From: a virus
Direction: 5' to 3' (one strand)
IMG/VR virus record: IMGVR_UViG_3300042691_042324
Coordinates: 1 to 51,362 of that record
DNA length: 51,362 bases
Below are positions 26,186 through 46,694 of the stretch, piece after piece. Numbering within the stretch: position 1 is the first letter of the stretch; every line of letters starts with the position of its first letter. The notes below the pieces were generated by a model. The model did no database searches, had not been told where the DNA came from, and saw nothing but the letters and a program-made list of their open reading frames with translations. A program made the translations under genes and the position numbers.

Positions 26186-26809
26186 ATGGCTTTCCGGGAT
26201 GAGAATATTGATTTAGAGAGTCTCCCATTTGCAGACCCATCAAACATAGTAATAAAAGAAAATTTTATAAGCAAAGAGCACCTTGCAAAAATACTTGACT
26301 ACTGTTACTCAATAGAACATTGGGAATCAAGAAGCGAATTGGGAACAGATAGCATCCACATGCCTGAATACATTGAAAATGGTTCTCCAGAAGTATTTGC
26401 AATAATGAAACACTATGTTGAGTCAGTGCAGCGTGAAGTCGAATATAAATTCGGAAGAAAATTAGAGAAAACAAAACCAGGAATACGCAAATGGTATCCA
26501 GGCGAATACCAAGACGTGCATGCAGATGGGGAAACAGCCAGCGGATGGCCGGGTTACAACTATATAGTTGATTACGGTTCAATTATATATTTAAACGACG
26601 AATATGAAGGTGGAGAGTTGTTTTTCCCAAAATATAATATTCACCTAAAGCCAAAACCAGGCACACTGGTATTTTTCCCATCAACAAACATGTACGCTCA
26701 CGGGGTTACGGAAGTTACGGAAGGCATCAGGTATACGTCTCCACATTTCTGGATTCCAGTAAAACACAAAATACTGATGGAAATGGCTGTAATGGATGAG
26801 CAAAAGTAA
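26186..26809 (+). CDS. 2OG-Fe(II) oxygenase, prolyl-4-hydroxylase-like
   Basis: 207 residues. Double-stranded beta-helix core: H112-A-D114 as the first two iron ligands, IIYLNDEYEGGELFFP, PGTLVFFPS and then distal H172 with R182 ten residues later for 2-oxoglutarate. This arrangement (Y-L-N-D-x-Y-x-G-G-E-L-x-F) is the hallmark of the P4H/egl-9 group. Enzymes of this type hydroxylate prolyl residues, or other amino acids and small molecules. GAGG precedes the ATG. It directly follows the FFPP-tailed Fn3 gene and overlaps the first sulfotransferase-like gene by 14 bases, so the three are probably one transcript. Confidence 0.85.
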   Translation: MAFRDENIDLESLPFADPSNIVIKENFISKEHLAKILDYCYSIEHWESRSELGTDSIHMPEYIENGSPEVFAIMKHYVESVQREVEYKFGRKLEKTKPGIRKWYPGEYQDVHADGETASGWPGYNYIVDYGSIIYLNDEYEGGELFFPKYNIHLKPKPGTLVFFPSTNMYAHGVTEVTEGIRYTSPHFWIPVKHKILMEMAVMDEQK

Positions 26810-27551
26810 ACACGTTTATTTTTTGCATATACCAAAAACATCTGGAATGAAAATGCAACATGACCTTCTGGATGCGTCAATTAGGGAAAGCAATATTAAT
26901 GTCTATATTCCAAAAGACTACGAATTTGTGTTCAACCCTGAAATTGCAGAATTTTATAACGTTATATGTGGGCATTTTGCAAGAAACCCGATAGATGTAA
27001 TCAAAGACCTAACAACATTTTCTATGGTCAGAGAGCCATTTAATCAATATTTAAGTTCGGCAAAATATGCTGCACAACAATCTGGTTCAGATTTCACTGA
27101 AGAATTTTTAGATAATTTTTTAAACAATGACAATAATGTTAGTTCTTATTTTGAAGGTATGTCTGGGTGTGATAATCCTCAATCATGTTTTTTGTATTCA
27201 AAAATTGCATGTTTTGAAGTTGTTTCCGATATTGATTTATACGGCAATCCGCCAGAACAAAAGTATAAATCTTTTTTTGTAGATAAGCCTCAGTCCTACT
27301 CTGCATTAAAAGATAAATTAGATGGAATAATAATTGGAAGGGTAGAAAATAGAAAATCTTTTGTCAATAAAATGAATGAAATTTTATTTAATTTATACGG
27401 CATAAAAATAGAAAATAATGAATCTGTGATTAACAGCACACCTGCACATGCGTTCAAAATAAGCAACAAACACAAAAACAAAATAAATTCAAAAATACAA
27501 CTGGACTTAGAGCTATACGCAAAAATCAGAGAATCTGAACGAATTCAATGA
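26796..27551 (+). CDS. Sulfotransferase-like protein
   Basis: 251 residues. HIPKTSG (11-17) matches the PAPS 5'-phosphosulfate loop and SMVREP (76-81) followed by Ser the 3'-phosphate-binding motif of the heparan-sulfate 2-O/6-O-type sulfotransferase group (HIPKTGG, VRDP). The rest is AT-rich and diverged. Predicted to transfer sulfate to a sugar or tyrosine, if active. It is coupled by ATGA to a paralogue. Such enzymes are rare in phages; they might modify fibre glycans made by the neighbouring glycosyltransferases. Activity uncertain. Confidence 0.72.
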   Translation: MSKSKHVYFLHIPKTSGMKMQHDLLDASIRESNINVYIPKDYEFVFNPEIAEFYNVICGHFARNPIDVIKDLTTFSMVREPFNQYLSSAKYAAQQSGSDFTEEFLDNFLNNDNNVSSYFEGMSGCDNPQSCFLYSKIACFEVVSDIDLYGNPPEQKYKSFFVDKPQSYSALKDKLDGIIIGRVENRKSFVNKMNEILFNLYGIKIENNESVINSTPAHAFKISNKHKNKINSKIQLDLELYAKIRESERIQ

Positions 27552-28291
27552 AACGCATATACCATCTTCATATACCAAGGACATCTGGTTTCGGAATATG
27601 TAAATCTTTATGGAAAACATTTATTGACAACGGTCTTCCAAGTAATGTTTTTTCACAAGATGTATCAACATTGATGTATGACCATATCGGGATGATTCGG
27701 TATCCTTTTGTGTCTGGACATTTTGCTATTAATCCAATAGTTGAAAACCCAGATGGTTTTGATATATTTTCCCTAGTTCGAGACCCAGTGGAACACTACA
27801 TAAGTATTGCCGCATATGTTTCAAGTAGTACTGGAAAAAATATGTCAAACGACTATATGGATGAATTCCTGTATGGAAACATAACTCCATTTGGGGTTAA
27901 CGAGCTTTTTTCAAGCGCGGGGAATATACAGACAAAAATGTTATTTTGCAGAATCGCTTTTGCTGATAAGTCATTTGTTGCATTAAGGGACGATGATGTT
28001 CAAAACGAAAAAAATATAATTTTTCTAGAACATGAAATTCCAAGCGAAGATGCGATGAAAGACCGTATTTATGAAATGAACATATTTGATTTCGCTAAAA
28101 GAGATAAAGCCGTTGATTGGTTAAAGAAAAAGGTTTTAGAATCATATGGATTTGAACTAGATGATTCAATTAACCATGTTACAAACTTTTCAAACAAATG
28201 TAATTTCAAGCCAGATATAAGTCATATAAGGGAAATCAAAAGAAGGTCAGAGGCTGACTGTTACCTATATGAACTCGTGTCTAGAAAATAA
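27548..28291 (+). CDS. Sulfotransferase-like protein, paralogue
   Basis: 247 residues. HIPRTSG (8-14) and SLVRDP (75-80) followed by V-E-H-Y-I-S reproduce the two phosphate-binding motifs of the preceding protein, with Arg replacing the Lys of the 5' loop (HIPKT to HIPRT), which may lower catalysis because that Lys normally acts in transfer. Otherwise similar length and AT-rich. The two genes look like a tandem duplication that diverged. Ends 17 bases before the next oxygenase gene. Confidence 0.7.
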   Translation: MKRIYHLHIPRTSGFGICKSLWKTFIDNGLPSNVFSQDVSTLMYDHIGMIRYPFVSGHFAINPIVENPDGFDIFSLVRDPVEHYISIAAYVSSSTGKNMSNDYMDEFLYGNITPFGVNELFSSAGNIQTKMLFCRIAFADKSFVALRDDDVQNEKNIIFLEHEIPSEDAMKDRIYEMNIFDFAKRDKAVDWLKKKVLESYGFELDDSINHVTNFSNKCNFKPDISHIREIKRRSEADCYLYELVSRK

Positions 28292-28308
28292 TTTGATATT
28301 GTTGCTTT

Positions 28309-28935
28309 ATGGAAATAGACGCAGCTTCACCATGGAAGATAAAGCCAGGTCACTTTGGTGATGGGCCAGAGAATATCCATATCTTTGAAAATTTCATTGA
28401 CAAAGATGATTTAAAAACAATCCAAGACTTTTGCCCAACAATAAATGAGTGGAATAACTCAAAAGAAAGCGTTTTCGCTGAAGATGGGACGTGTCTTTAC
28501 AACGCTGATTATTGGAACGATAGACAGTGCAGTAGCGATATTCTCCAAAGACTATCAATGCCAGTTTTTGACATAATTGAGAAATATATACAAAAAATGC
28601 AATCAACGCTCGAGGAGTTATATGACCTTCGTTTATCTCCACGCCCTCCAGTAATTATGAAGTGGCGTCCAGGCATTGAACAAAGGCCACACGCCGATAA
28701 ACAGCTAAACAATGGTGAACCAAATGCTTTCGTTGATTACGACCTAAATTCGTTGTTCTACTATAACGACGATTTTGAAGGCGGAGAACTTTTTTATCCG
28801 CAACATGGCATAACAGTAAAACCTAGACCAGGGCTTGCAGTTGCACACCCAGGAGATATTAACTACCTTCACGGAGTAACGATGATTACAAGTGGGTACA
28901 GGTATACAACACCATCCTTCTACACAGTTGAATAG
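28309..28935 (+). CDS. 2OG-Fe(II) oxygenase, P4H-like
   Basis: 208 residues. H128-A-D130, SLFYYNDDFEGGELFYP, PGLAVAHPGD, distal H188 and R198 give a complete metal and cosubstrate set. N-terminal residues 20-30 (ENIHIFENFIDKDDL) resemble the start of the 26186 protein (IVIKENFISKEHL), so both descend from one family. No clear ribosome binding site at its ATG; upstream gap is 17 bases. Substrate unknown. Confidence 0.85.
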   Translation: MEIDAASPWKIKPGHFGDGPENIHIFENFIDKDDLKTIQDFCPTINEWNNSKESVFAEDGTCLYNADYWNDRQCSSDILQRLSMPVFDIIEKYIQKMQSTLEELYDLRLSPRPPVIMKWRPGIEQRPHADKQLNNGEPNAFVDYDLNSLFYYNDDFEGGELFYPQHGITVKPRPGLAVAHPGDINYLHGVTMITSGYRYTTPSFYTVE

Positions 28936-28938
28936 ACG

Positions 28939-29466
28939 ATGATAAAAATTGAAGAACAACTGGTAGAACCAAGAGAATGCAATGTAATCATTGAGGCGAT
29001 AAAGGCAATCGGTACACCAACAAATCTCGCTGAAGGCGACCCGCACACCAGATATTACGATAAACGCATATTGATAGAAAACGATGTATTTGCGTATGGT
29101 GTCTTTGAACAAATATGCGACAAAGTGCTACGAGCTGCCGAAGATTTTGCTGGATTAGAACTGCGCATTGACCTTGCGACACTTATCTCTGTTACACCTG
29201 GCAACACCCCAGAAGAACATGCAGATAATCAAAATCTTGATGGAACGGAAAAGATTGGTTGCACCAATTTCTTCGTATCCGCAGTTGCATATTTGAACAG
29301 TAACTTCACTGGTGGCGACTTGGTATTTCCTAAGATTGATTATCGATATAAGCCGAATGCTGGTGATTGCATATTATTTCCTAGCGATTTAGAGCATAGC
29401 CATTATGTGGATAACGTATACGAAGGAAAGCGGATATCGTTGGCTTTGTGGTTTTCCCGTATATGA
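28939..29466 (+). CDS. 2OG-Fe(II) oxygenase, short P4H-like
   Basis: 175 residues, close to the minimum for the fold. H94-A-D96 (PEEHADNQ), VAYLNSNFTGGDLVFP, AGDCILFPSD, then H155 with R165 at the usual ten-residue spacing. Starts three bases after the preceding stop, so it is co-transcribed. Substrate unknown; the same family in other phages is annotated only as oxygenase. Confidence 0.83.
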   Translation: MIKIEEQLVEPRECNVIIEAIKAIGTPTNLAEGDPHTRYYDKRILIENDVFAYGVFEQICDKVLRAAEDFAGLELRIDLATLISVTPGNTPEEHADNQNLDGTEKIGCTNFFVSAVAYLNSNFTGGDLVFPKIDYRYKPNAGDCILFPSDLEHSHYVDNVYEGKRISLALWFSRI

Positions 29467-29473: not shown

Positions 29474-30205
29474 ATGAGAAATATCCAGGTTGAGTTCGTC
29501 GGAGACCCAAAAGCTGGTTTTTTGGTATACAGAAATGTACTCAGTGAAGACCTTGAAATACCAAAACGTTTAGAACAAACAATAGGCTCAAGCAACACCC
29601 CACCATATGCATGGATGGAAGCTCTTGTTGGTGATGGGCAGGTGATGAAAGATTACCGAGATTGCGTGGACTGCAAAATGAGCCCAGCACATCTTGAGCA
29701 TTGTCCAGAGCAATACAGCGAGCTGGTAAACATCTACAACGACACCGTAATTGGGCTTACAGCGTGCTTGCAGGACTATGAGTCCAGATACAACATTCGC
29801 ATGGATTTTATGGAAGCAATTAACTATGTCAGGTATAACGAAGGCCAACACTTCAATGTCCATGCCGACCATGGGTTCTCGTATATCTGTACGGTTTCAT
29901 CAGTGATGTATTTAAACGATGACTATGAAGGTGGAGAGTTGTGGTTTCCGTTTTTGGACCTTACTTTTCAGCCAAAGTATGGAGATATTGTCTTATTTCC
30001 ATCTACATACATTTATTCTCACGCATCAAAACCAGTTAAAAGAGGCACAAAATATGCAGCTGTAACGATGTTTGACTATAACGATAGGTACCACAAGCTG
30101 TGGAAGGGTTATGGAAAAAACATTGATGGGACTGATGCTGAATATGGACCTGGAATAGTAAGCCCTACAGCAAATCAAGTTGACAGGTTTATTTTCAAAA
30201 AATGA
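29474..30205 (+). CDS. 2OG-Fe(II) oxygenase with Lys in the 2OG site
   Basis: 243 residues. H130-A-D132, VMYLNDDYEGGELWFP, YGDIVLFPSTYIYSH with distal H183; the residue ten later is K193, not Arg. Collagen-type prolyl 4-hydroxylases also use Lys here. The N-terminal half includes CVDCKMSPAH and ECEQ-like Cys residues (C64, C67, C77). A longer in-frame start overlaps the previous gene by about 60 bases and adds residues unlike its relatives, so ATG 29474 was chosen. Overlaps the DUF6065-like gene by four bases. Confidence 0.82.
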   Translation: MRNIQVEFVGDPKAGFLVYRNVLSEDLEIPKRLEQTIGSSNTPPYAWMEALVGDGQVMKDYRDCVDCKMSPAHLEHCPEQYSELVNIYNDTVIGLTACLQDYESRYNIRMDFMEAINYVRYNEGQHFNVHADHGFSYICTVSSVMYLNDDYEGGELWFPFLDLTFQPKYGDIVLFPSTYIYSHASKPVKRGTKYAAVTMFDYNDRYHKLWKGYGKNIDGTDAEYGPGIVSPTANQVDRFIFKK

Positions 30206-30903
30206 CTAAGTTGTTTCTTAAAAAAACACATCAGAATCCACCATTGATACAGCAGTCAAGGATTAAACGTGACTGGATGGATGAGACATACAATAAGCAC
30301 GCCTATCAGTGTCTCCCTATGACTGTTGCGAACGTATATGGCTGGGAAATCGTCATGGAAGATGATTTGGTGGTTCAATGGGATGGCGGAAATACTGCAC
30401 CAATTATTCTTTCTGGAGAGAAAACATCGTTAGGCAGAACGCAGGCCACGTCATCGATTATTGGCATGATTTCTATACATATGGGGTGGGTTGTTAACAC
30501 GGAAGAAGGTTACAACACATGGATTACTGGTTCGCCAAATTATTTCGTTGAAGGAGCCGCCCCATTGACGGCGACAATTCCTAGCTATTGGTGGCCAGAC
30601 GAATCGCAGATGAATTGGAAAATCACCAAAATCGGAGAACCAGTAATTTTTAAAGCTGGAACACCATTTTGTTTCTTTAACATTTACGACAATTCAGTAC
30701 TTGAAAATGTTGAAATCATTGAATCAAGCCTGTGGGACGACGAGCAGCTGGTTGCATCGCGAATGAAGTATGGAGATTTAAAGGCAAGGAACAATATTGA
30801 AAAACCATGGACGTGGACAAAAGGAATTAAAACAGGTCTTGACGCCGACGGCAATAAAATAGGGCCGACATTCTCTGGTCTGCCAAAATTAGCCAATCCG
30901 TAG
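30202..30903 (+). CDS. DUF6065-like protein
   Basis: 233 residues. The order CLPMTVANVYGWEI, VQWDGG, SIIGMISIHMGWVVNTEEGYN, WITGSPNYF, PLTATIPSYWWPDESQMNWKIT and GTPFCFFNIY matches the DUF6065 family as I remember it, which often neighbours hydroxylases and has no proven activity. Trp-rich segments suggest a beta-sandwich with a hydrophobic pocket. It is translationally coupled (ATGA) to the preceding oxygenase, suggesting a shared substrate or pathway. Family recall should be verified by profile search. Confidence 0.6.
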   Translation: MTKLFLKKTHQNPPLIQQSRIKRDWMDETYNKHAYQCLPMTVANVYGWEIVMEDDLVVQWDGGNTAPIILSGEKTSLGRTQATSSIIGMISIHMGWVVNTEEGYNTWITGSPNYFVEGAAPLTATIPSYWWPDESQMNWKITKIGEPVIFKAGTPFCFFNIYDNSVLENVEIIESSLWDDEQLVASRMKYGDLKARNNIEKPWTWTKGIKTGLDADGNKIGPTFSGLPKLANP

Positions 30904-31746: not shown

Positions 31747-32056
31747 AAATGCGGGTGGAGAAAATCTCTATAACGCCGATGCCGACAAGGAATACAACGA
31801 ATACAAGCTTGCTGTAATCTCCTATCTAATAGGCGATAATCCAACTGAAATTGAATCAATGCGCATTGACCATGCCGCGGTAAAAATACGCCAGATGTGG
31901 AAATACTCATCAGACATACGTGGCTCAGTGCTTGATGCAGAATATTCAGCAAATAAACTTTCTGTTTTCATTGCTAAAAACAATGTTCATTTAACAGATA
32001 TGGCTAGAGACGCATATTGGAATTACTCTTTAGCGAAGGCTGTTGAAAATGGATAA
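31736..32056 (+). CDS. Small helical protein of unknown function
   Basis: 106 residues with regularly spaced helices (YNEYKLAVISYLIGDN, MRIDHAAVKIRQMWKYSS, MARDAYWNYSLAKAVE). GGAGGGG about ten bases before the ATG gives a strong ribosome site. Its C-terminus overlaps the next gene's start by eight bases. Reminiscent of small regulatory or accessory phage proteins, but no family is recognised. Confidence 0.55.
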   Translation: MRNRNAGGENLYNADADKEYNEYKLAVISYLIGDNPTEIESMRIDHAAVKIRQMWKYSSDIRGSVLDAEYSANKLSVFIAKNNVHLTDMARDAYWNYSLAKAVENG

Positions 32057-32813
32057 TAGGCAGCTTCGCACGGCAATGGCATCTCGAGTGCTTGGTGAAC
32101 ACCCTTTTAAGGCATGTTTCGGACACGATGCAGCTGATGCTGAAATTGAAAGCATATCTGAAATGGCCGCACGCGTAAAACAGTGGAGAAACGATATTGG
32201 GACATTAAGTCTGAGTATCGGAGCCAGAGGTGGGAACGAGGGCGTATGGTATGTTGACCTTCTCTCTTCGCCGCAATCTGGGTTTAAAGAACTGCTCATG
32301 AGATTTGATGATGCAGTGGCTAGTTATTTGTATGCTAAAAATCCACAAAAGAGTCTATTTTTTACTTCTGACGGATTGTCTTGTGTTTTTGCATACAAGC
32401 AGATGTTCCCTGAATCAGAAATACATTTTGCAAACAATCAATCCCTGTTTAATTATGAGACATTCATGCGTGATATGTCAACCGAAACATCTAGCGGAAG
32501 ATTCAGAGACATAGACTACAGCGTTGTTGATGAAAAAGAAGTTTCAATAGGAGAAGCTTCTGGATATGACTTTATCCAGGTTGCCTCGTGGGATGTGTTA
32601 TACGATGCAGACCTGCTAAAAAAATGTGTTTCAGCTCTATCGCCTGGCGGCGTGTTGGTTGCAATTTCAACAAACAATGCTGGAAAAGTTTACAGAGACG
32701 ACACAATGTTGCACCCATACTACGGGATGCACGAAATCTTAAAACAAAGTAGCGGAACCACTTACCATAACTCTGATTCTTACGGCTTTACCATATTTAC
32801 AAAATCAAGATAA
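32049..32813 (+). CDS. Methyltransferase-like protein with degenerate SAM motif
   Basis: 254 residues. The C-terminal part has the class I methyltransferase layout: YDFIQVASWDVLYDADLLKK, then CVSALSPGGVLVAIST and a final strand YGFTIFTKS. The glycine-rich motif I is missing; the corresponding region reads SLFFTSDGLSCVFAY followed by EIHFANNQ, so SAM binding is doubtful. The N-terminal 60 residues (LRTAMASRVLG, HDAADAEIESISEMAARVKQ) form helices. It could be an inactivated enzyme or a binding partner. ATG 32049 was chosen over a TTG six bases upstream. Confidence 0.55.
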   Translation: MDNRQLRTAMASRVLGEHPFKACFGHDAADAEIESISEMAARVKQWRNDIGTLSLSIGARGGNEGVWYVDLLSSPQSGFKELLMRFDDAVASYLYAKNPQKSLFFTSDGLSCVFAYKQMFPESEIHFANNQSLFNYETFMRDMSTETSSGRFRDIDYSVVDEKEVSIGEASGYDFIQVASWDVLYDADLLKKCVSALSPGGVLVAISTNNAGKVYRDDTMLHPYYGMHEILKQSSGTTYHNSDSYGFTIFTKSR

Positions 32814-34165: not shown

Positions 34166-34873
34166 ATGAATATTGATACTGAGCCAAAATTCTGGGAAGA
34201 CTTCATAAGCCACATACCGTGCATAGCAGCAGTGACAGAAAACTGGAAAACCATACTTGCTGAGCTTGAGGAGCAAATTGCATCAACAGATTCCAAATGG
34301 CTCTGGAACGTACCACGCGTAAATATAGGTGAAGGTTTTAAATCTGACACTACGGCAAATAACACAAAACTCTATACAGGTTCATCATGGAAGATAATGG
34401 GCACTGGTGTAGAAGTGGATGTTGGTGGATTTACTGGGCCTGGAGCAGATGTTTCAAGAAGGCTTGTTGAGATGAAATCAAAAATGCCATATCACGATGC
34501 TCTAACCACTCTTCAGAAAACACTTCCGAAAACAGTGTCAATTATTAGGGAGTATTCAGACCGTGGAGAAATGGTAAACACATCCCTTAGCGTTCTTGCT
34601 CCTGGCACGAAAATAAACATGCATCAAGGAGACGCTTCATATATGCGCATCCACGTCGGGTTAAAATGCGACCCAAACTGTCGCATTTCAGTTGGAAACG
34701 AAGACGTTGGATATGAATCACGAGTTTGGGTTCCGGGCAAGGCAATAGCTTTTAAAGATGGCGGGAACTTCTATCATGGCGTAAACCATGAAGGCAATAC
34801 TGAAAGATGGATTCTTTTATTTGATATCCCATTGTCGTATCTAAGAGGCTTTATAAAGCACGAATCACTATGA
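34166..34873 (+). CDS. Aspartyl/asparaginyl beta-hydroxylase-like 2OG oxygenase
   Basis: 235 residues. NTSLSVLAPGTKINMHQGD, then YMRIHVGLKCDPNCRISVGN, WVPGKAIAFKDG and FYHGVNHEGNTERWILLFDI match the AspH family, in which iron is held by two His only. Predicted ligands are H153 and H204, with R214 for 2-oxoglutarate. AspH enzymes hydroxylate Asp/Asn side chains of proteins; related bacterial forms act on peptides, lipids (LpxO-type) and amino acids. Coupled to the desaturase by ATGA, which might favour a lipid substrate. AGAGGG precedes the ATG. Confidence 0.82.
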   Translation: MNIDTEPKFWEDFISHIPCIAAVTENWKTILAELEEQIASTDSKWLWNVPRVNIGEGFKSDTTANNTKLYTGSSWKIMGTGVEVDVGGFTGPGADVSRRLVEMKSKMPYHDALTTLQKTLPKTVSIIREYSDRGEMVNTSLSVLAPGTKINMHQGDASYMRIHVGLKCDPNCRISVGNEDVGYESRVWVPGKAIAFKDGGNFYHGVNHEGNTERWILLFDIPLSYLRGFIKHESL

Positions 34874-35733: not shown

Positions 35734-35951
35734 TGAAAGAAGAAATTGAAACAAACGTTGCCCCAGTCACAGATAGGGAGCTCGCTGATATCCTTTATAA
35801 TGCATTCTCTAGGAATGAAGTAGACGAGGCTTACATTCCAAAGCCTGGACAGAAATGTACACCCATTCAGAACCACGATGTAGTTCGAGATGTGTTCAGG
35901 TGCAAGCAAGAGGCGTTAGTTGCATACAGAAAAGCTAGGGGGATAAAGTGA
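35733..35951 (+). CDS. Small protein of unknown function in the oxygenase operon
   Basis: 72 residues, hydrophilic: VTDRELADILYNAFSRNEVD and YIPKPGQKCTPIQ, then a helix RDVFRCKQEALVAYRKARG. Overlaps the desaturase stop (TAATG) and the next oxygenase start (GTGATAG), so translation is coupled on both sides. Two Cys (about 42 and 57). No family recognised; a small electron-transfer or adaptor role is only a guess. Confidence 0.55.
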   Translation: MKEEIETNVAPVTDRELADILYNAFSRNEVDEAYIPKPGQKCTPIQNHDVVRDVFRCKQEALVAYRKARGIK

Positions 35952-38087: not shown

Positions 38088-38974
38088 TTTTCAACGACTC
38101 TAAAGCCGAACACCTTGGTGGTGGTGTGGTGGTATTCCGTAACGCGATAAGTCTGGATTGGGGATACGCCAATAGCATAGCCAAGGAAATCGTTGACAGA
38201 GAAATGGACGATATGTACCAGCCAGCAATAAACCCAGACAGCGGGTTAGAGGAGTACATAAATAGAAGCGGTTATTTTTTCTCGAAAAACGGAATAGACA
38301 AGATGCCCAAAAGAGGTTCTCGTGTACACCAGGACACCAGAGTGGAAGTATTTGAACTATTTCGCTTTATCGAGGAGTGCAAAGATAGGTATCTTTTCAA
38401 ATATATGCACATGTTTCCTATTGTGTTTAAAAATATATGGTGGAAAGTAAAGGGCCATTTGGTTAATTATTCCTCTGATTGCGGTGGTTACATTGGTGAG
38501 CACAGTGACACCAGTGTTGACTATGTTTATGGATTGCCACACCCGCAACATCAGCTTGCTTCTCGAAATACATTATCTTGTCTGGTTTATTTTGGTAATT
38601 GCGTAGATGGTAAAGAAGTTGTTGAGCCAGGTGATTTCACTGGCGGACACCATAGATTTACCTACCTAAATATTGACTACATACCAAGAAGGGGAGATAT
38701 TTTGATGTTTCCTTCAAACTACATAGCAGCGCATGAGGTGACTCCAGTTAAGTCAGGGAATCGGTTTACCTACCTTGGTTGGTACGCACACGGCACTCCC
38801 AATCCTGCTGTAAACGAAGAAGTAGAAGACCCGATTACCCATCCTGAAAAAGCAGTCATCTCATCCAATGTCTACATTCCGTATCTTAGAGAAAGATTTC
38901 TTGAATACCTAGACTCGGTTGGCGAAGATAAATCATCAAATACATATCGACTAGTAATGGGTGAACACGCATGA
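38084..38974 (+). CDS. 2OG-Fe(II) oxygenase, long GGGVVVF family, copy 2
   Basis: 296 residues. LGGGVVVFRNAI at the N-terminus, MFPIVFKNIWWKVKGHLVNY, H140-S-D142, LVYFGNCVDG, FTGGHHRFTYLNIDYIPRRG, distal H217 and R227. The usual acidic residue after GG (GGE) is replaced by His (GGHH), as in copy 5 (GGH). Translationally coupled on both sides (ATGA). Same predicted chemistry as copy 1, but the substrate-side residues differ, so the copies may have distinct targets. Confidence 0.82.
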   Translation: MIFNDSKAEHLGGGVVVFRNAISLDWGYANSIAKEIVDREMDDMYQPAINPDSGLEEYINRSGYFFSKNGIDKMPKRGSRVHQDTRVEVFELFRFIEECKDRYLFKYMHMFPIVFKNIWWKVKGHLVNYSSDCGGYIGEHSDTSVDYVYGLPHPQHQLASRNTLSCLVYFGNCVDGKEVVEPGDFTGGHHRFTYLNIDYIPRRGDILMFPSNYIAAHEVTPVKSGNRFTYLGWYAHGTPNPAVNEEVEDPITHPEKAVISSNVYIPYLRERFLEYLDSVGEDKSSNTYRLVMGEHA

Positions 38975-39696
38975 AATTAACACACCTTGGTAGCGGTATT
39001 GTCATGATTAGTGAACTAATAGACATAGACAATATGGAGATTGAGGAAATTAAGAGAATATTCTCAACAACAACTCCACAAGGTTATTCGGTAGTTGATG
39101 GAAAAATCATAAGCGACGGGGGTTATGAATTTGATGAATTTGGTAAAAGTAAAGCCCCTTTGAGATACACCGACATTGCTGGATTTGAAATTGTCCACAA
39201 ACTACGAAACGCAATATATAAAGGCGTAGTTGAATATTGCAAAGTTTTCCCAGTCGCTGTAGAGTGCATAACCGGGCAGACAGATGGGTATCTAATTAGA
39301 TATTTACACGGAAATGACATGGGTCCTCATTCTGATTGCAACATCCCCTATAAGCCGGGAACGATAGAGCCATTAACGGAAAGTCCTGCGTTTAATACGC
39401 TCACTACCTCAATATTCCTAAATCGAGACTATGAAGGAGGTGACGTCCGTTTCAGGATGTGGGGGATAACTGCAAGGCCAGAATTTGGTTCAGCGCTAAT
39501 CTACCCATCCAATTTCATCGGTTGCCACGAAGTTGACGAGGTAAAGAATGGTGAGCGATGGGCATTTCTTTCATGGTTTTACCATGGAAACGGACAGGAA
39601 AAAAAGGATGGCTCCTACGACTGGGTCGGAAAGCTCAAGTCAGATATTGGTGTTTCAAATTGTCATCAAAATCACGTCTTAGTTGGAGAGCAGTGA
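38971..39696 (+). CDS. 2OG-Fe(II) oxygenase, long family, copy 3 (diverged)
   Basis: 241 residues, the shortest of the family. The N-terminus reads LGSGIVMISELI in place of LGGGVVVF. Core: GPH120-S-D122, TSIFLNRDYEGGDVRFRMWG, FGSALIYPSN, distal H186 (GCHEVDEV) and R196. It lacks the WWK segment and C-terminal extension of its paralogues and is closest in the core to the P4H-like proteins (DYEGGD). Overlaps its neighbours by ATGA upstream and GTGA downstream. Confidence 0.8.
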   Translation: MKLTHLGSGIVMISELIDIDNMEIEEIKRIFSTTTPQGYSVVDGKIISDGGYEFDEFGKSKAPLRYTDIAGFEIVHKLRNAIYKGVVEYCKVFPVAVECITGQTDGYLIRYLHGNDMGPHSDCNIPYKPGTIEPLTESPAFNTLTTSIFLNRDYEGGDVRFRMWGITARPEFGSALIYPSNFIGCHEVDEVKNGERWAFLSWFYHGNGQEKKDGSYDWVGKLKSDIGVSNCHQNHVLVGEQ

Positions 39697-40586
39697 GCGT
39701 GTCCTCCGTTTCAAAATACAGTGGAAAGATTGCTTTGCCAACGGTAGCTCTTGCATGCGTTTTGTTTTTAATTCACTTTTTGATGATTATTCTTTCATTC
39801 AATAAATTACTGCCAGTATGGTTTGGGGTTTTTGTAAATACTTTAGTTTGCTATTATTTTTACACAATCCACCACGAAGCAACGCATGGAAATATTAGTG
39901 GGCGTAATAAGAGAATGCTATGGATTGATAGATTTTTTGGAAACATGGCCGCTGTTTTCATTGATTTAAGTTTTTCTGGATACTCAAAAGCGCACATCGT
40001 TCATCATGCAAATACAAACGGGCCAAGAGACACAGTTGTTGACGCTCATTTTAAGTCATTTGCTTTAAACCTAAAAAGATACGCAAGAACAACGTTAATA
40101 AAGTACATATCAATTATTCCAGTAAAAAAAGTTACCTACTACCTGTTTAAAAAACTATTAACGCGGGAAAGCGAAATAGGAGCAAAGTTCATGCTCCGAG
40201 CTCACCCAAAAATTGCGAAGTTCAATAGAGCGACCTTAATCACCGCCATTGTGCTGCTTTTTAATGAATACTCATTTCACTTTGTAGTGCTGTGGTATGT
40301 TCCGATAATCCTGTACCCAATTATCAATATGATTCTTCACGATTGGCTACCTCATAATGTTTATGATAAAAATGGGAAAAGGGCTACTGGTAAATATTTT
40401 GATACTCGAATACTAACTTGGCCGGGAAGTCACATTGTCACATGTGCGCAGGATTATCACCTCATCCACCACATCCATCAAGGTATCCCTTTTTACAACT
40501 ATAAGAAGGTGTACAGATTAATGGAAGCAGAACTTCTTCAAAATGGCTCACCCATAGAGCATATAAAAATAACCAAATTATTCTAA
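39693..40586 (+). CDS. Membrane di-iron desaturase/hydroxylase, CrtR-like
   Basis: About 297 residues from a GTG overlapping the previous stop (GTGA), with GGAG close upstream; a second GTG six bases later is equally possible. A much longer in-frame start would lie deep inside the previous gene and add unlikely sequence. Three His boxes: H61-EAT-H65, H101-IV-HH, H256-LI-HH. The end HDWLPHNVYD, then YFDTRILTWPGSH, DYHLIHHIHQGIPFYNYKKV closely resembles beta-carotene hydroxylase-type desaturases (DWLPH, NYHLVHH, IPFYRY). Hydrophobic spans at about 13-35, 40-58 and 185-215. Possible role: hydroxylating carotenoids or desaturating acyl chains. Confidence 0.78.
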   Translation: MSVSSVSKYSGKIALPTVALACVLFLIHFLMIILSFNKLLPVWFGVFVNTLVCYYFYTIHHEATHGNISGRNKRMLWIDRFFGNMAAVFIDLSFSGYSKAHIVHHANTNGPRDTVVDAHFKSFALNLKRYARTTLIKYISIIPVKKVTYYLFKKLLTRESEIGAKFMLRAHPKIAKFNRATLITAIVLLFNEYSFHFVVLWYVPIILYPIINMILHDWLPHNVYDKNGKRATGKYFDTRILTWPGSHIVTCAQDYHLIHHIHQGIPFYNYKKVYRLMEAELLQNGSPIEHIKITKLF

Positions 40587-40592: not shown

Positions 40593-41135
40593 TTAAAACA
40601 GTCTTTTGAATCTATTTCTGTTTAAAGCTTTTGCTGATTCTTCTACGATGTGCACTTTCCATACGCCGTCAACAAACAGAGATTCAACTATTTTTACAAA
40701 CCTTATTTCCCCGGAAATATAAACGTCACGTTTATCTTCTCCGCCACCTTGGTCGTAACCTAGAGCATAACCTCTAAAAAGAGCTTCAACATAGTTTATG
40801 TTCGCATCGTCTGCTTGTTTTTTTATTTCCTTCTCTGATGCTTCACCGTGAAGATTGTTTCCATCAACATAAATACCTTTGAAACCGTATTTTGCAGCTG
40901 CGGCGATAGTGTCATTTGGTGCGCCGAGTTTTCCTATGCAAAAAATCACATCGCTAGCATCAAAGAGTTCGGAAATAGTACTGTGCTCAATAGCTTGACT
41001 CATGCTTCTAGCTTTTTTAATTGTCTGTTCCGAGCGACCCTCTGAAGTCCAGTGCACTTGATTTCCAGAATTGGCAATGCTTGTAGCTATGGTTAAGCCC
41101 ATGCTTCCCATAGAAACTATTCCAACTTTTATCAC
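40593..41135 (-). CDS. Truncated NAD(P)-binding 6PGDH/beta-hydroxyacid dehydrogenase-like protein
   Basis: 180 residues, GTG start. GIVSMGSMGLTIATSIANSG is a Rossmann GxGxxG-like start (G-S-M-G-S-M-G), followed by VHWTSEGRS and DVIFCIGKLGAP, like the NADP-binding domain of the 3-hydroxyisobutyrate dehydrogenase family. The usual helical C-terminal domain of about 120-130 residues is reduced to about 70 (WKVHIVEESAKALNRNRFKR) and the catalytic Lys motif is not evident. It may be a shortened, repurposed protein or a decayed gene. It lies downstream of oxygenase copy 4 with two bases between them. Confidence 0.6.
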   Translation of the reverse strand: MIKVGIVSMGSMGLTIATSIANSGNQVHWTSEGRSEQTIKKARSMSQAIEHSTISELFDASDVIFCIGKLGAPNDTIAAAAKYGFKGIYVDGNNLHGEASEKEIKKQADDANINYVEALFRGYALGYDQGGGEDKRDVYISGEIRFVKIVESLFVDGVWKVHIVEESAKALNRNRFKRLF

Positions 41136-41137: not shown

Positions 41138-42127
41138 TTAATCAATTTTTCTATTAAGAGGATTTATATATCCTTTTTCGCCTTCAAGGTTTCTGACCAA
41201 ATAATCGGTTTTGTTCAGGTTTTCATCTAGGTGTGAATAGTTGCTTTTTATGTAGTTAGAATAGTTCTGATAGTCATCAAATACTGTATCTATCCAATGT
41301 GGAACACACCAGCTTGATACTTCATCTGGCTCAGCTACTTCAAGTCTGATATTTATGTCAGGGCTGCCTTGTGAGAAGAACTCCAAATACGCATATCTTG
41401 TTCCACCAGTTACTTCGGTGACGCCATGTGATGCAACATAGTTTGTAGGAAAGATTATGATGTCGCCCTTTTTTGCTTTATGACTTATGTTCAGATATGG
41501 GAAGTACAACTCACCACCGCTATAGTTGGTGCCATCAAGCTCGTCAACCGAATCAACACAATCATTTATGTAGAGAAGTACAGCAACAGTTTGCCTCGCT
41601 CCGACCTGACCGTAGGGGACATATCTTTCTCCACCAGTAGCTCGATAGTTGGTGTCGTTGTCATTGTGTAGACCGAGATGCTTTCCAGTGTCATACCGGA
41701 GAACATGCCCACGATTTCTCCACCATATTGTCCCAACCACTAGAGGGAACATATCTATGTACCTAATCAAGGTTTTATAGATAGAGTCTTCCCATCCCCT
41801 AATTATTTCAACTATCTCTTCCTCTGTTCCATCTTGTACTGGCTCAAGCACTCTTACTGGAACTGTTTCAACTTGCTCGATTGAGAACTTATTGCCGTCT
41901 TCATTTTTCGCATATACGACGCCATTGATGTCAATATCGTATTTCCATCTTTGCTGGTGCGCAGCTAGCGCGTTCCTATCTATCCATTTTGACATCAGTG
42001 GAAGGTCAACCTCCATAACGTCATGGAAAACAACGACTCCACCACCAAGGTCAGTGAATTTAAGATTGCGTATTTCTTCTAATGTTTCACCCGAAATATC
42101 AGGCGTATCAACCTCATATCGTTTCAA
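41138..42127 (-). CDS. 2OG-Fe(II) oxygenase, long GGGVVVF family, copy 4
   Basis: 329 residues. LGGGVVVFHDVM, MFPLVVGTIWWRNRGHVLRY, H154-N-D156-ND, QTVAVLLYINDCVDSVDELD, YSGGELYFPYLNIS, distal H234 and R244. Start is TTG: AAGAGGTGA lies seven bases upstream and no later Met precedes the conserved N-terminus, so TTG is well supported. It overlaps copy 5 upstream by 14 bases. The C-terminal 80 residues (WCVPHWIDTVFDDYQNY) match copy 5. It and copy 5 are the closest pair of the family. Confidence 0.84.
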   Translation of the reverse strand: MKRYEVDTPDISGETLEEIRNLKFTDLGGGVVVFHDVMEVDLPLMSKWIDRNALAAHQQRWKYDIDINGVVYAKNEDGNKFSIEQVETVPVRVLEPVQDGTEEEIVEIIRGWEDSIYKTLIRYIDMFPLVVGTIWWRNRGHVLRYDTGKHLGLHNDNDTNYRATGGERYVPYGQVGARQTVAVLLYINDCVDSVDELDGTNYSGGELYFPYLNISHKAKKGDIIIFPTNYVASHGVTEVTGGTRYAYLEFFSQGSPDINIRLEVAEPDEVSSWCVPHWIDTVFDDYQNYSNYIKSNYSHLDENLNKTDYLVRNLEGEKGYINPLNRKID

Positions 42128-43112
42128 CTTGATTCACCTCTTGAGCAGTGTGTGTCTCACCGTACTGTGTCACGCATCTATTTTGAAAAACAGGATTTGA
42201 ACCAAGTTCCAAACCTGGTGTTGGTTTTGACCAAATTGAGTATTCTGATTTGCAATAAAGCTCGTAGTCGTCGTAGATGTTGTCAAACCAAACAGGCTCA
42301 CACCACTGTATGCTTGCGTCTTTCTCTTTAATCCTTATGTTTGCCGCATTATCGGTTCCACCTTGGCCAAAGAACGAAAGATATGCGTACCTAGTCCCAC
42401 CCTCCATCTTTGTCACTCCATGTGCGCAAATGTAGTTTGTTGGAAACATGATGATGTCTCCTTTTCTGGGCCTGTAGTCAATACCTAGATACGCAAATTT
42501 AAGGTGACCACCAGCGAAGTTGGTTCCATCAAGCTCATCTTGACTGTCAACACAATCATTAAAATATGCCAAAGCCCCAGCTGTCTGCCTGAGAGCCACC
42601 TGCCCACGTGGCATGTATCTGATGCCTTGGGTTACCTTGTAGTTAGTGTCGTTGTCTTGGTGCCATCCGAGTATCCCGCCACCCTCGTATCTGAGGATGT
42701 GGCCTCTGGTTTTCCACCATAGGCTCCCAACGATTAACGGGAACATGTCTGTATAGCGAATTAGACACTTGTAGATGGCGTCCTCGAGGCCTGTGAAGTA
42801 TTTGACCACATCTGGGCTTGTCGCCTCTGTAACGGGCTCCAGAAGCCTTACAGGGGCGTTTGGGACGTCTTCTAGGCGATACCTGAAGCCGTCCTCGTTT
42901 ATCCCGTACTCAACCCCTTCTTCGTCGGTAACATAAGACCACCGACTCTTATGCGCCTCGGCAGCGCATTCATCAATATGCCTCAAAATTGACTCTTCGA
43001 CATTGAAGGCATTTCTAAAAACGACTATTCCGCTTCCAAGGTCGTCAACAATTAATTGACTGATTTCCAGAAGCTCGTTCGCGCCAATCTGTGGGGTTGA
43101 TGGCATTTTCAT
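42114..43112 (-). CDS. 2OG-Fe(II) oxygenase, long family, copy 5
   Basis: 332 residues. LGSGIVVFRNAF, MFPLIVGSLWWKTRGHILRY, H151-Q-D153-ND, ALAYFNDCVDSQDELDGTNF, AGGHLKFAYLGIDYRPRKG, distal H231 and R241. Higher GC and fewer AT-rich codons than copies 1-3, though its closest relative is copy 4 next door. Preceded by the GPx-like gene with two bases between. Fe(II), 2OG and oxygen are required; product unknown. Confidence 0.84.
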   Translation of the reverse strand: MKMPSTPQIGANELLEISQLIVDDLGSGIVVFRNAFNVEESILRHIDECAAEAHKSRWSYVTDEEGVEYGINEDGFRYRLEDVPNAPVRLLEPVTEATSPDVVKYFTGLEDAIYKCLIRYTDMFPLIVGSLWWKTRGHILRYEGGGILGWHQDNDTNYKVTQGIRYMPRGQVALRQTAGALAYFNDCVDSQDELDGTNFAGGHLKFAYLGIDYRPRKGDIIMFPTNYICAHGVTKMEGGTRYAYLSFFGQGGTDNAANIRIKEKDASIQWCEPVWFDNIYDDYELYCKSEYSIWSKPTPGLELGSNPVFQNRCVTQYGETHTAQEVNQVETI

Positions 43113-43114: not shown

Positions 43115-43738
43115 TTAACCTACAAGAAATTTTACTGCCTCAACAACGGTCCACGACGAACCAGCAGCAAGTGGCTTATCAGCCAACGGAAGGTCAGCCC
43201 AATTGAATCTTCCAACCTGTTGCCCCTCTCTACTCACCATGAACTTTTCATAGTTATGCGGTATGCGCATGATTGCTTGGCCGGCAAGATTCTGTCCAGC
43301 AGCAGCTCTGTCTGAACCATCTGCTTTATTATCGTCAAAAGCCCGAATGAGGTCACCCTTAAGAAAACTCCAAATCTGGTGCTCGTTTGGGCCATTGACT
43401 TCAACTTTTTCAGTAATTGGGAAAGTCACAAAGGGATACACCTCAGAAATAAACTGTGCAATATCAGCACTTTCAGCTGGTTCCATCTCGCCGAATTGAT
43501 TGCATGGAAAAGCAACAACACTAAACCCCTTGTCGGCAAACATCTCATGAAGTTGCTGTAGTTCCCACAACTGTTTTGCAGCTCGCGCATACGACCAAAC
43601 CGGACTACATTTTGGAGAATATCCAGTCTTTGTAACAATATTGGTAAAAAGACAAACTTTTCCGCGCACAGAATCCATTACATCAAAGGTGCCATCAACT
43701 GATTTAATTGGCATATCAAAAACAGATTTAACGCTCAT
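43115..43738 (-). CDS. Glutathione-peroxidase-like protein lacking the peroxidatic Cys
   Basis: 207 residues. FDMPIKSVDGTFDVMDSVRG, GKVCLFTNIVTKTGYSPKCS, GFSVVAFPCNQFGEMEPAES, WSFLKG and NYEKFMVSREGQQVGRFNW cover the whole GPx domain. At the catalytic position the family has NVAS-x-C-G (or selenocysteine); here it is N-I-V-T-K-T38-G, with C44 six residues later. PCNQF (C79, N80, Q81) and the Trp region are intact. A 15-residue insertion separates the first helix (SPVWSYARAAKQLWELQQL). Without the active Cys it may use C44/C79 or be non-catalytic. Coupled to the 43735 gene by ATGA. Confidence 0.8.
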   Translation of the reverse strand: MSVKSVFDMPIKSVDGTFDVMDSVRGKVCLFTNIVTKTGYSPKCSPVWSYARAAKQLWELQQLHEMFADKGFSVVAFPCNQFGEMEPAESADIAQFISEVYPFVTFPITEKVEVNGPNEHQIWSFLKGDLIRAFDDNKADGSDRAAAGQNLAGQAIMRIPHNYEKFMVSREGQQVGRFNWADLPLADKPLAAGSSWTVVEAVKFLVG

Positions 43739-44034: not shown

Positions 44035-44040
44035 GCCAAG

Positions 44041-44049
44041 ATGCTAGCA
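44041..44049 (-). promoter_or_regulatory. Extended -10 leaderless promoter TGCTAGCAT
   Basis: TGC plus TAGCAT on the minus strand, then CTTGGC, then ATG at 44034. Identical nonamer to the cfa promoter. Confidence 0.68.
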
Positions 44050-44097
44050 CTGGCTATAGGCTTTTAAAGCACAATCTTTCAACGCAATTTGCAGATA

Positions 44098-45048
44098 CTA
44101 AACAGATTCTACGTAGTTTTTTGGTGCATTCAACACCTTCGCCGTTCTGTCTCTGAAGTTTAAACCAGAGAATTCTTCGTACTCATCCAAAGTGCGTTCA
44201 GCTCCTAGAGCGCCTTCACCGATAACACGGTTAATAAGTATTGCCTTGTATTCAGCTTTAGATTCAGCGTCTAAAATCTCCCATTCTTTTGAAAAATCAG
44301 TCCACACATGGTGTCGTCTAGTCTTTTCAAAAGATTTCCCACCTATATACAAATGACCAACCACAGGCGTCAGTGGGACAACTGGAGTAAACCCATGAGT
44401 AAAAGCTCTTGCCGCAATTAAAGGCTCCTCCCCCCAAAAAGCAATTTTTTTATTTGGTTTAATTCTACTAAAATTACCATAAGTGAATATAAAACCACCA
44501 GAAACTGATGGTGTAAAAACGCAGTTTTCTCGAGCAGTTACTGCAGTCTGACTAGGGATTAATGTATTTTCAAATTTTTCTATATCCTCAAAAAAAGATA
44601 TTTCGGTTATATGTTCTAAGCCGTTTTTGAAAATTACATTCCCATTCTCGTCGTATGAATACTCTGCTGGATACATTGTGATGATTGGTTTATTTATGCC
44701 AAAAGCTGTGATTTTTTCTAAATCTGTTATTAATATCGCATCCCAGTTTTTCACAAATCGCATATGTGAATCAATTTGTAGATAATAGTCTTCGCCATTA
44801 TAAAATTCATTAGCTATATATCTGGATTTTTGTAGACCTATATTTTTGGGCGCAATGCTTTCCGCATAGTTTACTGTTACCCAAAATGGATAATTTATGT
44901 CTACATTTGTTTCCCCGCTGAATAAAACACAATTATGTATGCCGAAAGATAGTTTTATAAATCCACTCGCATTTTCAACCATGTTTCTAACAGTATTGTT
45001 CAGCTCATGGTCCCTGTATGCTGGTATTTGTATAAATATTGATTTCAT
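44098..45048 (-). CDS. GlcNAc-transferase-type glycosyltransferase (GT-A)
   Basis: 316 residues. KSIFIQIPAYRDHELNNTVR, YYLQIDSHMRFVKNWDAILI (D-x-H replacing D-x-D), FTPSVSGGFIFTYGNFSRI and FWGEEPLIAARAFTHGF match the Skp1-hydroxyproline GlcNAc-transferase family (PF11397-like). In Dictyostelium this enzyme attaches GlcNAc to hydroxyproline made by a P4H, which is suggestive beside many P4H-like genes. Start at the ATG after GGGAATAAA, giving a two-base gap... relative to the upstream stop; a longer start overlaps the radical SAM gene. Acceptor is unproven. Confidence 0.78.
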   Translation of the reverse strand: MKSIFIQIPAYRDHELNNTVRNMVENASGFIKLSFGIHNCVLFSGETNVDINYPFWVTVNYAESIAPKNIGLQKSRYIANEFYNGEDYYLQIDSHMRFVKNWDAILITDLEKITAFGINKPIITMYPAEYSYDENGNVIFKNGLEHITEISFFEDIEKFENTLIPSQTAVTARENCVFTPSVSGGFIFTYGNFSRIKPNKKIAFWGEEPLIAARAFTHGFTPVVPLTPVVGHLYIGGKSFEKTRRHHVWTDFSKEWEILDAESKAEYKAILINRVIGEGALGAERTLDEYEEFSGLNFRDRTAKVLNAPKNYVESV

Positions 45049-45049
45049 T

Positions 45050-46066
45050 TTATTCCCACACGGCACTTGCACATGATGTACATATTGACTCTAGTGCCCG
45101 TTCTATCATGGAGATGTGAAAATCGCTATGCCAAATATCGTTCAGGCTATTTTCATTAAGTGAGCCAAATGTATAATCAAATTCAAAATCGTTACAACAA
45201 AGAAAAGCATCGCCGAGCGCATTCACATGCAGCCAACCATATATACGCCCAGTTTTTCCATTTGAACAACCAACAACTTTATTCTTATTACCCTTGAGCC
45301 TTGCTATTGCTTTAGAGTTGTTAATTACTTTATGTTCAGCAAGTATTGATGCTCTATCAACAAGAGACTCAACTGAAAATATGTTTAACCCAGGAAAAAG
45401 CGATTGCGCTAATTTGATTTGTTGTTGCGATTCGCCTGTTATGGGGTTTAAATCAATATTCGGAGCATTCTCCATCATCTCCATCCATCCACCGTTTTGC
45501 TCTTGGTGTGTAGATGTTGGGATATTCACACCAATCGAAAGATTTCCGCTTTCCATTAGTTCTGGGAATGATTTCATAGTTCGCAAGACATTTTCAGCAA
45601 GATAGGAAAACGAATACCTTGTAATGCCAGACCTTTCTTGCCATAGGCCATCTTCAAAAGCTGGGATATTCAAATTAATACCAGTTACTACGTCTTTGTA
45701 CTTTTGTAAGATTTCAACTTTTTCTTCAGTTAGATTTACCCCGTTTGACAGCACCATAGTCTTGAAGCCATAACACCTAGCCAAAAGAAGCATCTCTTCT
45801 AGGTATTTGTAAAGTAGTATTTCATTGTAGTGGGCAGTGTAGAAATGCCAAAAGTTATTGTCAACAACTCCATTTGGTTTATTTTTTTCTTTATGCAACT
45901 CGGATAAAATTTTATCCATCAGGTCCACTGGCATATGTTTTGCTGTATGTGATGGATTTTTCTGATACCTAACAGGGCAAAACCAGCATTTCGCATTACA
46001 GAAACCAAATGGGTCTATCTGGGCATCTGTTATCTTGAATTTTTTTAAATTGTCTGATATTGACAT
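45050..46066 (-). CDS. Radical SAM / SPASM domain enzyme
   Basis: 338 residues. C23-x3-C27-x2-C30 (FGFCNAKCWFCP) binds the SAM-cleaving 4Fe-4S cluster; ETM- and GxIxG-like strands (MVLSNGVNLT, GINLNIPAF) follow. The C-terminus has SPASM-type Cys (GCSNG, FLCCNDF, SICTSCA), for one auxiliary cluster, and the SPASM phrase FGSLNENSLNDIWHS. SPASM enzymes often modify peptides (sactipeptides, quinone cofactors) or sugars. No precursor peptide gene was seen beside it. It precedes the GlcNAc-type transferase by one base, so the two likely act together. Confidence 0.85.
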   Translation of the reverse strand: MSISDNLKKFKITDAQIDPFGFCNAKCWFCPVRYQKNPSHTAKHMPVDLMDKILSELHKEKNKPNGVVDNNFWHFYTAHYNEILLYKYLEEMLLLARCYGFKTMVLSNGVNLTEEKVEILQKYKDVVTGINLNIPAFEDGLWQERSGITRYSFSYLAENVLRTMKSFPELMESGNLSIGVNIPTSTHQEQNGGWMEMMENAPNIDLNPITGESQQQIKLAQSLFPGLNIFSVESLVDRASILAEHKVINNSKAIARLKGNKNKVVGCSNGKTGRIYGWLHVNALGDAFLCCNDFEFDYTFGSLNENSLNDIWHSDFHISMIERALESICTSCASAVWE

Positions 46067-46103
46067 ATTTAGCTCTTTTTGTATTAATTGAAGCGAAAAT
46101 TAA

Positions 46104-46694
46104 TTAAGACCACCAGTTAACAACTGAGTACTTTGTCCCTTCTAAGACTGGCATTGATGAGTGTGAGTATGGGGCGATAGATGGGAAAATGACAATATCA
46201 CCAGCTATTGGCGGATATTTGAATTTTATTTTGTCAAAATCCAAATCGCCCCCAACAAAATCATCATTGAGATATCCAACTGCAGAAACTTTTCGTGGTG
46301 TTTTTTCACTGTTATCTAAATGATGTATATAGTGTTCGCTGATTTCATATTTTAGAATTGAATAATATTTTGATTTGTCAATATCAACTTCAATATTAAA
46401 CCTGAATAAAAAATCAACCAAGCATTTAGTGAACGATTCGTGGAGAAAGTTATTGACATATCTTGTTGCAGAACAAAAAATATCTTCTCCTAGTGTTGGA
46501 AGAGCAAAATCACTGTTTGTTCTAACCGCGCTGACGCCTGTAGTGCCATCAGAATTCACCACAGAAGCTTTTTTCCACGAAAATTTAGTATTTAATTCAT
46601 TCCCTAAAACCGACTCAACTACATTGATTATTGACTGTGGATGCTTAATCGCACCTCTGTAAATTGCAACTCCATTGCAAATTAATGGTTGCAT
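46104..46694 (-). CDS. 2OG-Fe(II) oxygenase with Lys in the 2OG site
   Basis: 196 residues. H125-L-D127 (EHYIHHLDNSE), VGYLNDDFVGGDLDFDKIKF, AGDIVIFPSIAPYSH with H178 and K188 at the ten-residue spacing. As in the 29474 protein, Lys replaces Arg for 2-oxoglutarate, a feature of animal-type prolyl hydroxylases. The N-terminus starts ICNGVAIYRGAI, echoing the GGGVVVF start of the long family. Upstream TATAAA lies two bases before the ATG. Precedes the radical SAM gene by 37 bases on the same strand. Confidence 0.82.
   Translation of the reverse strand: MQPLICNGVAIYRGAIKHPQSIINVVESVLGNELNTKFSWKKASVVNSDGTTGVSAVRTNSDFALPTLGEDIFCSATRYVNNFLHESFTKCLVDFLFRFNIEVDIDKSKYYSILKYEISEHYIHHLDNSEKTPRKVSAVGYLNDDFVGGDLDFDKIKFKYPPIAGDIVIFPSIAPYSHSSMPVLEGTKYSVVNWWS

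Follow-up and report, generated by a model that had tools for sequence, protein, structure and literature searches.

The DNA analysed here (the window) is a complete IMG/VR virus record of 51,362 bases, IMGVR_UViG_3300042691_042324, with no flanking sequence beyond it; the phage is of freshwater type. Between positions 26186 and 46694 it carries thirteen genes for 2-oxoglutarate (2OG)-Fe(II) oxygenases, here called ox01 to ox13, and directly upstream of ox01 lies a gene for a tail-region protein that ends in an array of aromatic–Phe–Pro–Pro units. All thirteen open reading frames (ORFs) are present where an earlier note on this DNA had placed them, ox04 and ox07 beginning at in-frame ATGs within slightly longer listed ORFs; ox01 to ox10 are on the plus strand and ox11 to ox13 on the minus strand. 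Nine pass the curated Pfam cut-off for PF13640: ox01 (26186–26809, E 1.5e-9), ox03 (28939–29466, 2.5e-11), ox04 (29474–30205, 1.7e-12), ox08 (37227–38087, 3e-9), ox09 (38084–38974, 1.8e-9), ox10 (38971–39696, 3.2e-10), ox11 (41138–42127, 6.2e-10), ox12 (42114–43112, 1.2e-8) and ox13 (46104–46694, 2.7e-12). With the AspH-type ox05 (34166–34873), which passes the cut-off of PF05118 (3.7e-18), and ox07 (36612–37217), of the 2OG-FeII_Oxy_5 type, which passes that of PF13759 (1.8e-8), 11 of the 13 belong to their families by this measure. The other two match PF13640 below the cut-off: ox02 (28309–28935, 6e-4), assigned by its ligands and its place in the core synteny, and ox06 (35948–36619, 3.4e-5), whose ligands are found in 21 aligned sequences.

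The putative active sites are well preserved. Eleven of the proteins combine H-x-D with a distal His and an Arg or Lys ten residues further on, ox05 has the two-His ligands of the AspH type, and ox07 shows the Oxy_5-type variant, H-x-H with the His and Arg 11 residues apart. When relatives were aligned with MAFFT (3–38 sequences per gene), each group showed no or almost no variation at the metal and 2OG ligands: the HAD, His and Arg of ox02 are kept in 37/37 sequences, the H-x-D of ox04 in 38/38 and all ligands of ox12 in 37/37, while the ox13 group contains one outlier at these positions. Such conservation implies selection for enzymatic function. One oxygenase, ox12, was modelled with AlphaFold from 40 related sequences (predicted local distance difference test score, pLDDT, 89.5; predicted template modelling score, pTM, 0.90). 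The model predicts a double-stranded beta-helix resembling that of prolyl 4-hydroxylases (P4Hs), the best fold matches being the algal, Bacillus anthracis, chlorella virus PBCV-1 and human PHD2 prolyl hydroxylases (E 1.6e-8; TM-score by target 0.5–0.65). Also among the structural matches were PolD, HygX and PiuC, as well as the Pseudomonas putida P4H bound to EF-Tu and the B. anthracis P4H acting on EF-Tu. The B. anthracis enzyme (3itq, 5hv0) is the closest solved sequence relative of ox04 (profile match 5e-9) and ox01 (best PDB match, 1.2e-5), and LH3/P3H matches were found in the oxygenase searches too. These analyses show thirteen intact 2OG-Fe(II) oxygenases with conserved active sites, mostly of predicted P4H type. 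The number of oxygenases given in the earlier note was confirmed by profile search and its ligand pattern from the sequences, and the structure prediction that it had proposed gave, for ox12, the fold it anticipated.

The gene upstream of ox01 (24932–26176, plus strand) encodes a protein with three fn3 stretches (9.7e-15) that ends in VAPPYFPPYFPP(FFPP)8PGFGPGFK, in other words in a C-terminal ([F/Y]FPP)10 array followed by PGFGPGFK. No such array is expected by chance (chance expectation 0). In the array DNA, at about 26033–26152, nine of the ten units are distinct, and yet all encode [FY]FPP, which points to selection on the protein sequence. Homologues of this protein in relatives share the same ending. 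Across 57 distinct arrays the number of units ranges from 3 to 34 (median 12), with FFPP (466) more frequent than YFPP (208), HFPP (70) and WFPP (7); Phe-Lys forms the C-terminal end in 26 of these proteins, and array proteins commonly hold 10–30 Pro-Pro pairs. Elsewhere the carrier may have fn3, another or no recognised N-terminal domain, and in some cases the array makes up nearly the whole protein; its occurrence on differing carrier domains in other phages indicates that the array itself is the linked element. A collagen-like substrate was also looked for nearby, and no Gly-X-Y run of eight or more was found in any ORF of the window or of 13 related contigs. The open-licence literature of PubMed Central yielded no paper dealing with DUF6065 or with phage FFPP repeats. 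The position of prolyl-hydroxylase-type enzymes beside an invariant Pro-Pro repeat suggests that the array is a substrate.

Linkage between the array and the oxygenase block with its counterparts elsewhere (the cassette) was examined from both sides. On the cassette side, we took distinct loci encoding the core marker DUF6065 (in the window at 30202–30903, plus strand; PF19541, 2.3e-43) with at least 6 kb upstream, and counted as an array ([FYHWL]FPP)3 or longer: 35/35 carry one, on the same strand, 1.2–7.7 kb upstream, as do two cassette contigs binned in bacterial metagenome-assembled genomes (MAGs). On the array side, an oxygenase-blind DNA pattern for ([FY]FPP)3 was run over IMG/VR. Of the loci found, 70 had 3 kb or more of downstream sequence; among these, a 2OG oxygenase lies within 5 kb downstream in 61, two or more lie within 6 kb in 54, and DUF6065 is present in 46; on the upstream side of the array an oxygenase was found in 1/49 loci. 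Two further fn3 proteins of the window provided controls, one with a (TPAP)n array and a Cys-rich tail (15777–16823, plus strand; fn3 2e-14), the other with a (TTAAPA)n array and a Cys-rich tail (47209–48150, minus strand; fn3 1.6e-12). The Thr/Ala/Pro repeat of the latter was rejected as an alternative linked element, with oxygenases in 1/29 loci (Fisher 9e-16 against the array loci, a value that overstates independence because the array loci are related by descent). TPAP arrays gave a weaker, separate pairing (9/59 loci, single oxygenases, no DUF6065). At L421, L468, L478, L486, L490, L498, L499, L508 and L510, in other phages, one P4H-like oxygenase gene lies up to about 2 kb downstream of a TPAP-repeat protein, possibly a simpler version of the array–oxygenase pairing. 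Another tail protein of the window, of 801 residues (10076–12481), is built of degenerate repeats of about 20 residues (...GLHTAPRTASGSG...). The array was present in 7/7 large cassette genomes as against 0/9 isolate or single-cell records from the isolate collection, five of these nine carrying 7–14 PF13640 genes. The association recurs on two unrelated backbones and with differing carrier domains. The cassette is thus tightly, directionally and reciprocally linked to an aromatic–Phe–Pro–Pro array protein in the tail-fibre region.

On balance, we favour the view that the block serves virion maturation, as a cassette whose prolyl-hydroxylase-type enzymes modify the aromatic–Pro–Pro array, where both substrate and reaction are inferred. 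Alternatively, the oxygenases may hydroxylate Asn, Asp, Lys or Pro in other virion proteins, namely the large tail fibres, with the array protein merely a co-exchanged member of the module. This would agree with the presence of large fibre genes just upstream at nearly all loci, with the movement of fibre domains together with the cassette between lineages, and with the AspH-type ox05 and the LH3/P3H matches, which suit residues other than array prolines. We nevertheless consider it unlikely, since the linkage tracks the array whatever its carrier domain and Thr/Ala/Pro-repeat proteins lack it. The abundance of Pro-Pro pairs in array proteins raises another explanation, that the enzymes modify the translation machinery (EF-Tu, ribosomal proteins) and so allow stall-prone Pro-Pro runs to be made. 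The EF-Tu-linked P4Hs among the matches of the ox12 model could be read in this sense, but some ten enzymes would be excessive for such a task, the window annotation showed no gene for an elongation factor, and the cassette adjoins fibres rather than early genes; we regard this explanation as very improbable.

Maturation of the array by a dedicated cassette also accords with what is conserved among relatives. A search with ox12 recovered 60 viral contigs, and the DUF6065 profile at least 600 stretches in IMG/VR. The order is constant: tail-fibre genes, ox02, ox04, DUF6065, usually a glutathione peroxidase (GPx)-like gene, ox08, ox09 and members of the ox10/11/12 groups. The conserved core accordingly consists of the array, ox02, ox04, DUF6065, ox08, ox09 and ox10–12, often with the GPx-like and NAD-binding proteins; sulfotransferases, desaturases, CMAS, ox05, ox13, the PF11397 glycosyltransferase and the radical SAM protein are sporadic. 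A maximum-likelihood tree groups ox03, ox08, ox09, ox10 and ox12 into a single clade apiece and comes close to doing so for ox02, ox04 and ox11; the clades of the core oxygenases span different phage lineages. Judged from these sequences, the paralogues are old and separately conserved. Such a history agrees equally well with enzymes that act at different positions of one repeated substrate and with the separate targets suggested in the earlier note, which are not shown. The partly variable gene content might instead reflect a hypervariable tail-side island that gathers unrelated auxiliary genes with no common function. The constant core order, the separate orthologous clades across lineages and the reciprocal linkage all speak against such an island, and we give this idea very little credence.

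The cassette occurs on two phage backbones that share no detectable head, portal or sheath genes. G001 and G002, two genomes of about 170 kb, belong to the window's own lineage; they have WhiB genes and have terminase, portal and sheath in common. In G001 the portal matches PF04860 and the capsid PF05065. In G003 and G004 portal, capsid and sheath differ from those of G001, and of the 228 G001 genes, 36 and 28, respectively, have homologues there, mainly fibres and cassette. That fibres and cassette are retained between genomes whose portal, capsid and sheath are unlike counts in favour of a maturation cassette. The terminase and sheath of G001 are nearest to those of Gordonia and Arthrobacter phages, psiM2 and others also being close for terminase, and WhiB-like regulators were seen in G001 (L083 9993–10322), G002, G005 and G009. 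Together the WhiB genes and these affinities suggest actinobacterial hosts for the window lineage, possibly the abundant freshwater Actinobacteria, for which very few phages have been cultured. In a second cassette type (L250 749–9673), the gene order differs: downstream of an fn3 protein with an FFPP/FFPF array come two ox04-like genes, DUF6065, an ox02-like gene and several ox01-like genes, with at least seven oxygenases in all. The cassette of a MAG contig includes a TauD/TfdA-type 2OG oxygenase (L127 7365–8162; PF02668), indicating that a further oxygenase type can be recruited. G003 also has a DNA polymerase III alpha-like gene seemingly split over two adjoining ORFs (L102 6196–9553) and a tryptophan halogenase gene (L103 8252–9436).

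A large number of oxygenases per phage is not unprecedented. According to the earlier note, aquatic phages were known to have one oxygenase or a few, which is wrong: cyanophage isolates carry 7–14 PF13640 genes, mostly scattered (Syn9 7, ACG-2014d 10, S-RIM50 12, S-SCSM2R 12, S-SCSM1 14), and nine 2OG-Fe(II) oxygenase copies have been reported in S-SZBM1 (PMC9146016). What stands of its interpretation is the dedicated modification system, which is well supported by conserved order, conserved catalytic residues and the tie to one unusual tail-region protein. Density is the distinguishing feature. Two close relatives, G001 and G012, pack 12 PF13640 genes into 19.2 kb, as against at most six in any 20.5 kb of the isolated cyanophages scanned, and the packing of the cassette is about double that of isolates. 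The T4-like cyanophages (Syn9, S-RIM50, S-SCSM1, S-SZBM1) thus resemble the cassette in Pfam family and copy number and differ from it in the mostly scattered arrangement, in the lack of an FPP array in those scanned and in the role proposed for their enzymes, which is DNA repair; in S-SCSM2R the oxygenases lie among glycosyltransferases and a radical SAM gene. DUF6065 had no match among 50,697 isolate phage records, nor did ox12 or the window protein at 49477 in tblastn searches of isolate phages. The repair proposal rests on two cyanophage oxygenase genes that adjoin uvsX/uvsY (PMC2984593; PMC9146016). Extending this role in DNA or RNA repair, or in base modification, to the present enzymes seems hardly tenable: the window oxygenases gave no AlkB match in Pfam at E up to 1 and Tet_JBP matches of only 11.8–17.5 bits (cut-off 34.9), and the scanned genes of the block included none recognised as serving repair or replication.

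The remaining genes of the block are of several kinds. Two sulfotransferase-like proteins, accessory and variable, are encoded on the plus strand at 26796–27551 (phrog_3347, Galactose-3-O-sulfotransferase, 1.3e-5) and 27548–28291 (phrog_3347, 1.9e-4). A conserved cassette protein at 32043–32813 (plus strand) has no Pfam or PHROG match, and homologues in 41 loci. The plus strand further carries a variable fatty-acid-desaturase-family di-iron protein (34870–35733; PF00487, 2.6e-26) and a second member of that family (39558–40586; PF00487, 3.6e-31 over residues 85–334), whose ORF overlaps ox10, the listed ATG probably being too early and the true start downstream. On the minus strand are a 6PGDH-like NAD-binding protein (40593–41135; PF03446, 1e-6), frequent in the cassette (32 loci), the GPx-like protein (43115–43738; PF00255, 6.7e-25), a PF11397 GlcNAc glycosyltransferase (44098–45072; 9.5e-38) and a radical SAM/SPASM protein (45050–46066; PF04055, 3e-11; PF13186, 4.5e-10), the latter two accessory and variable. 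The simultaneous presence of oxygenases, desaturases, CMAS, sulfotransferases, glycosyltransferases, an NAD-binding protein and radical SAM genes could denote a biosynthetic cluster for a small molecule, glycan or lipid, and the frequency of the 6PGDH-like protein and the gene neighbourhood in S-SCSM2R point the same way. Most of these genes are sporadic, however, whereas the core oxygenases and DUF6065 are constant, and no carrier protein or synthetase was seen, so that we hold a cluster of this kind to be quite improbable. In Dictyostelium, Skp1 is modified by a P4H and then by a GT60 enzyme, which adds GlcNAc to the hydroxyproline. The cassette resembles this pathway in having PF13640 enzymes near a PF11397 glycosyltransferase; as the core of the cassette it was dropped because the PF11397 gene is sporadic, with no close homologue in most cassette contigs, and the pairing of GT60 enzyme and hydroxylase is not constant.

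The DUF6065 protein is predicted to adopt a beta fold (pLDDT 82) with a weak match to dUTPases (Foldseek E about 1e-5; TM-score 0.54–0.75 by target and about 0.4 by query). DUF6065 also occurs in Caulobacter vibrioides and, above its cut-off, in 24/399 (about 6%) of sampled bacterial genomes from the phylum of MAG L127; the bacterial loci L401–L410 showed no oxygenase neighbours in 3.7 kb, stretches too short to decide the matter. In the GPx-like protein the peroxidatic Cys is replaced: the position before the conserved Gly, Cys or Sec in glutathione peroxidases, is Thr. In the alignment its relatives mostly have Ala, Thr, Phe or Ser there, a minority Cys, and together with it they keep another Cys five residues farther on. 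A role other than that of a peroxidase is therefore likely.

Returning to the array as substrate, the oxygenases would consume O2 and 2OG late in infection and hydroxylate the array prolines in ([F/Y/H/W]FPP)n. Residues next to these prolines may be modified too, as may further Pro-rich proteins of the tail, the (TPAP)n and (TTAAPA)n proteins being possible second and third substrates. The paralogues might divide the work between the first and the second Pro, between ring carbons 3 and 4, by stereochemistry, or among aromatic neighbours and successive hydroxylations. Where present, the sulfotransferases and the PF11397 glycosyltransferase could cap some hydroxyls with sulfate or GlcNAc. The product would be a stiff, polar, hydrated, polyhydroxylated tail appendage for host contact, the repeat having been modified before the next cell is infected. 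Several points weigh against this scheme, besides the shared descent of the array loci. The hydroxylation of the array is a prediction; enzymes with P4H-like folds also have free amino acids, antibiotics and other proteins as substrates, and PolD, HygX and PiuC are among the matches of ox12; and neighbourhood is no proof of substrate. Nine of the 70 array loci lack a detected oxygenase, a count obtained with profile hidden Markov models built from the cassette family, which may miss divergent enzymes there. Finally, the scheme assigns no role to the genes for DUF6065, the GPx-like and NAD-binding proteins, the desaturases and the radical SAM protein.

Viral and bacterial precedents exist for parts of it. 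The B. anthracis P4H hydroxylates Pro-Pro-Gly peptides, and mimivirus hydroxylates and glycosylates its own collagen-like proteins (PMC8968730). The B. anthracis system, with its collagen-like spore protein, relies on one enzyme and Gly-X-Y, whereas the cassette combines many paralogues with an [FYHW]FPP array, and the search for Gly-X-Y runs found none. Like the cassette, PBCV-1 (5c5t) and mimivirus bring a protein hydroxylase of their own, but they are large DNA viruses of eukaryotes with collagen substrates and one or few enzymes. A more distant parallel is offered by mussel foot proteins and plant extensins, Pro- and aromatic-rich repeats in which Pro, and in mussels also Tyr, is hydroxylated to give adhesive or wall material; the repeats are different and the enzymes are those of eukaryotic secretion, so that the likeness would be one of analogy. 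It is tempting, if rather doubtful, to go further and imagine a phage-encoded line of up to about 14 hydroxylases making a mussel-foot-like polyhydroxylated adhesive, with array and cassette forming one infection device exchanged among unrelated aquatic phages and the DUF6065 and GPx-like proteins serving as dedicated scaffolds.

Aquatic phages commonly have 2OG-Fe(II) oxygenases, for which the published guesses are a part in host metabolism or in the repair of DNA. The reciprocal link with a single simple repeat provides a specific candidate substrate. If the proposal is correct, this would be, as far as our searches show, the first described phage system that makes hydroxylated protein material; it could account for the surplus of oxygenase genes in certain aquatic phages and could supply a small collection of prolyl or aromatic hydroxylases whose target is defined.

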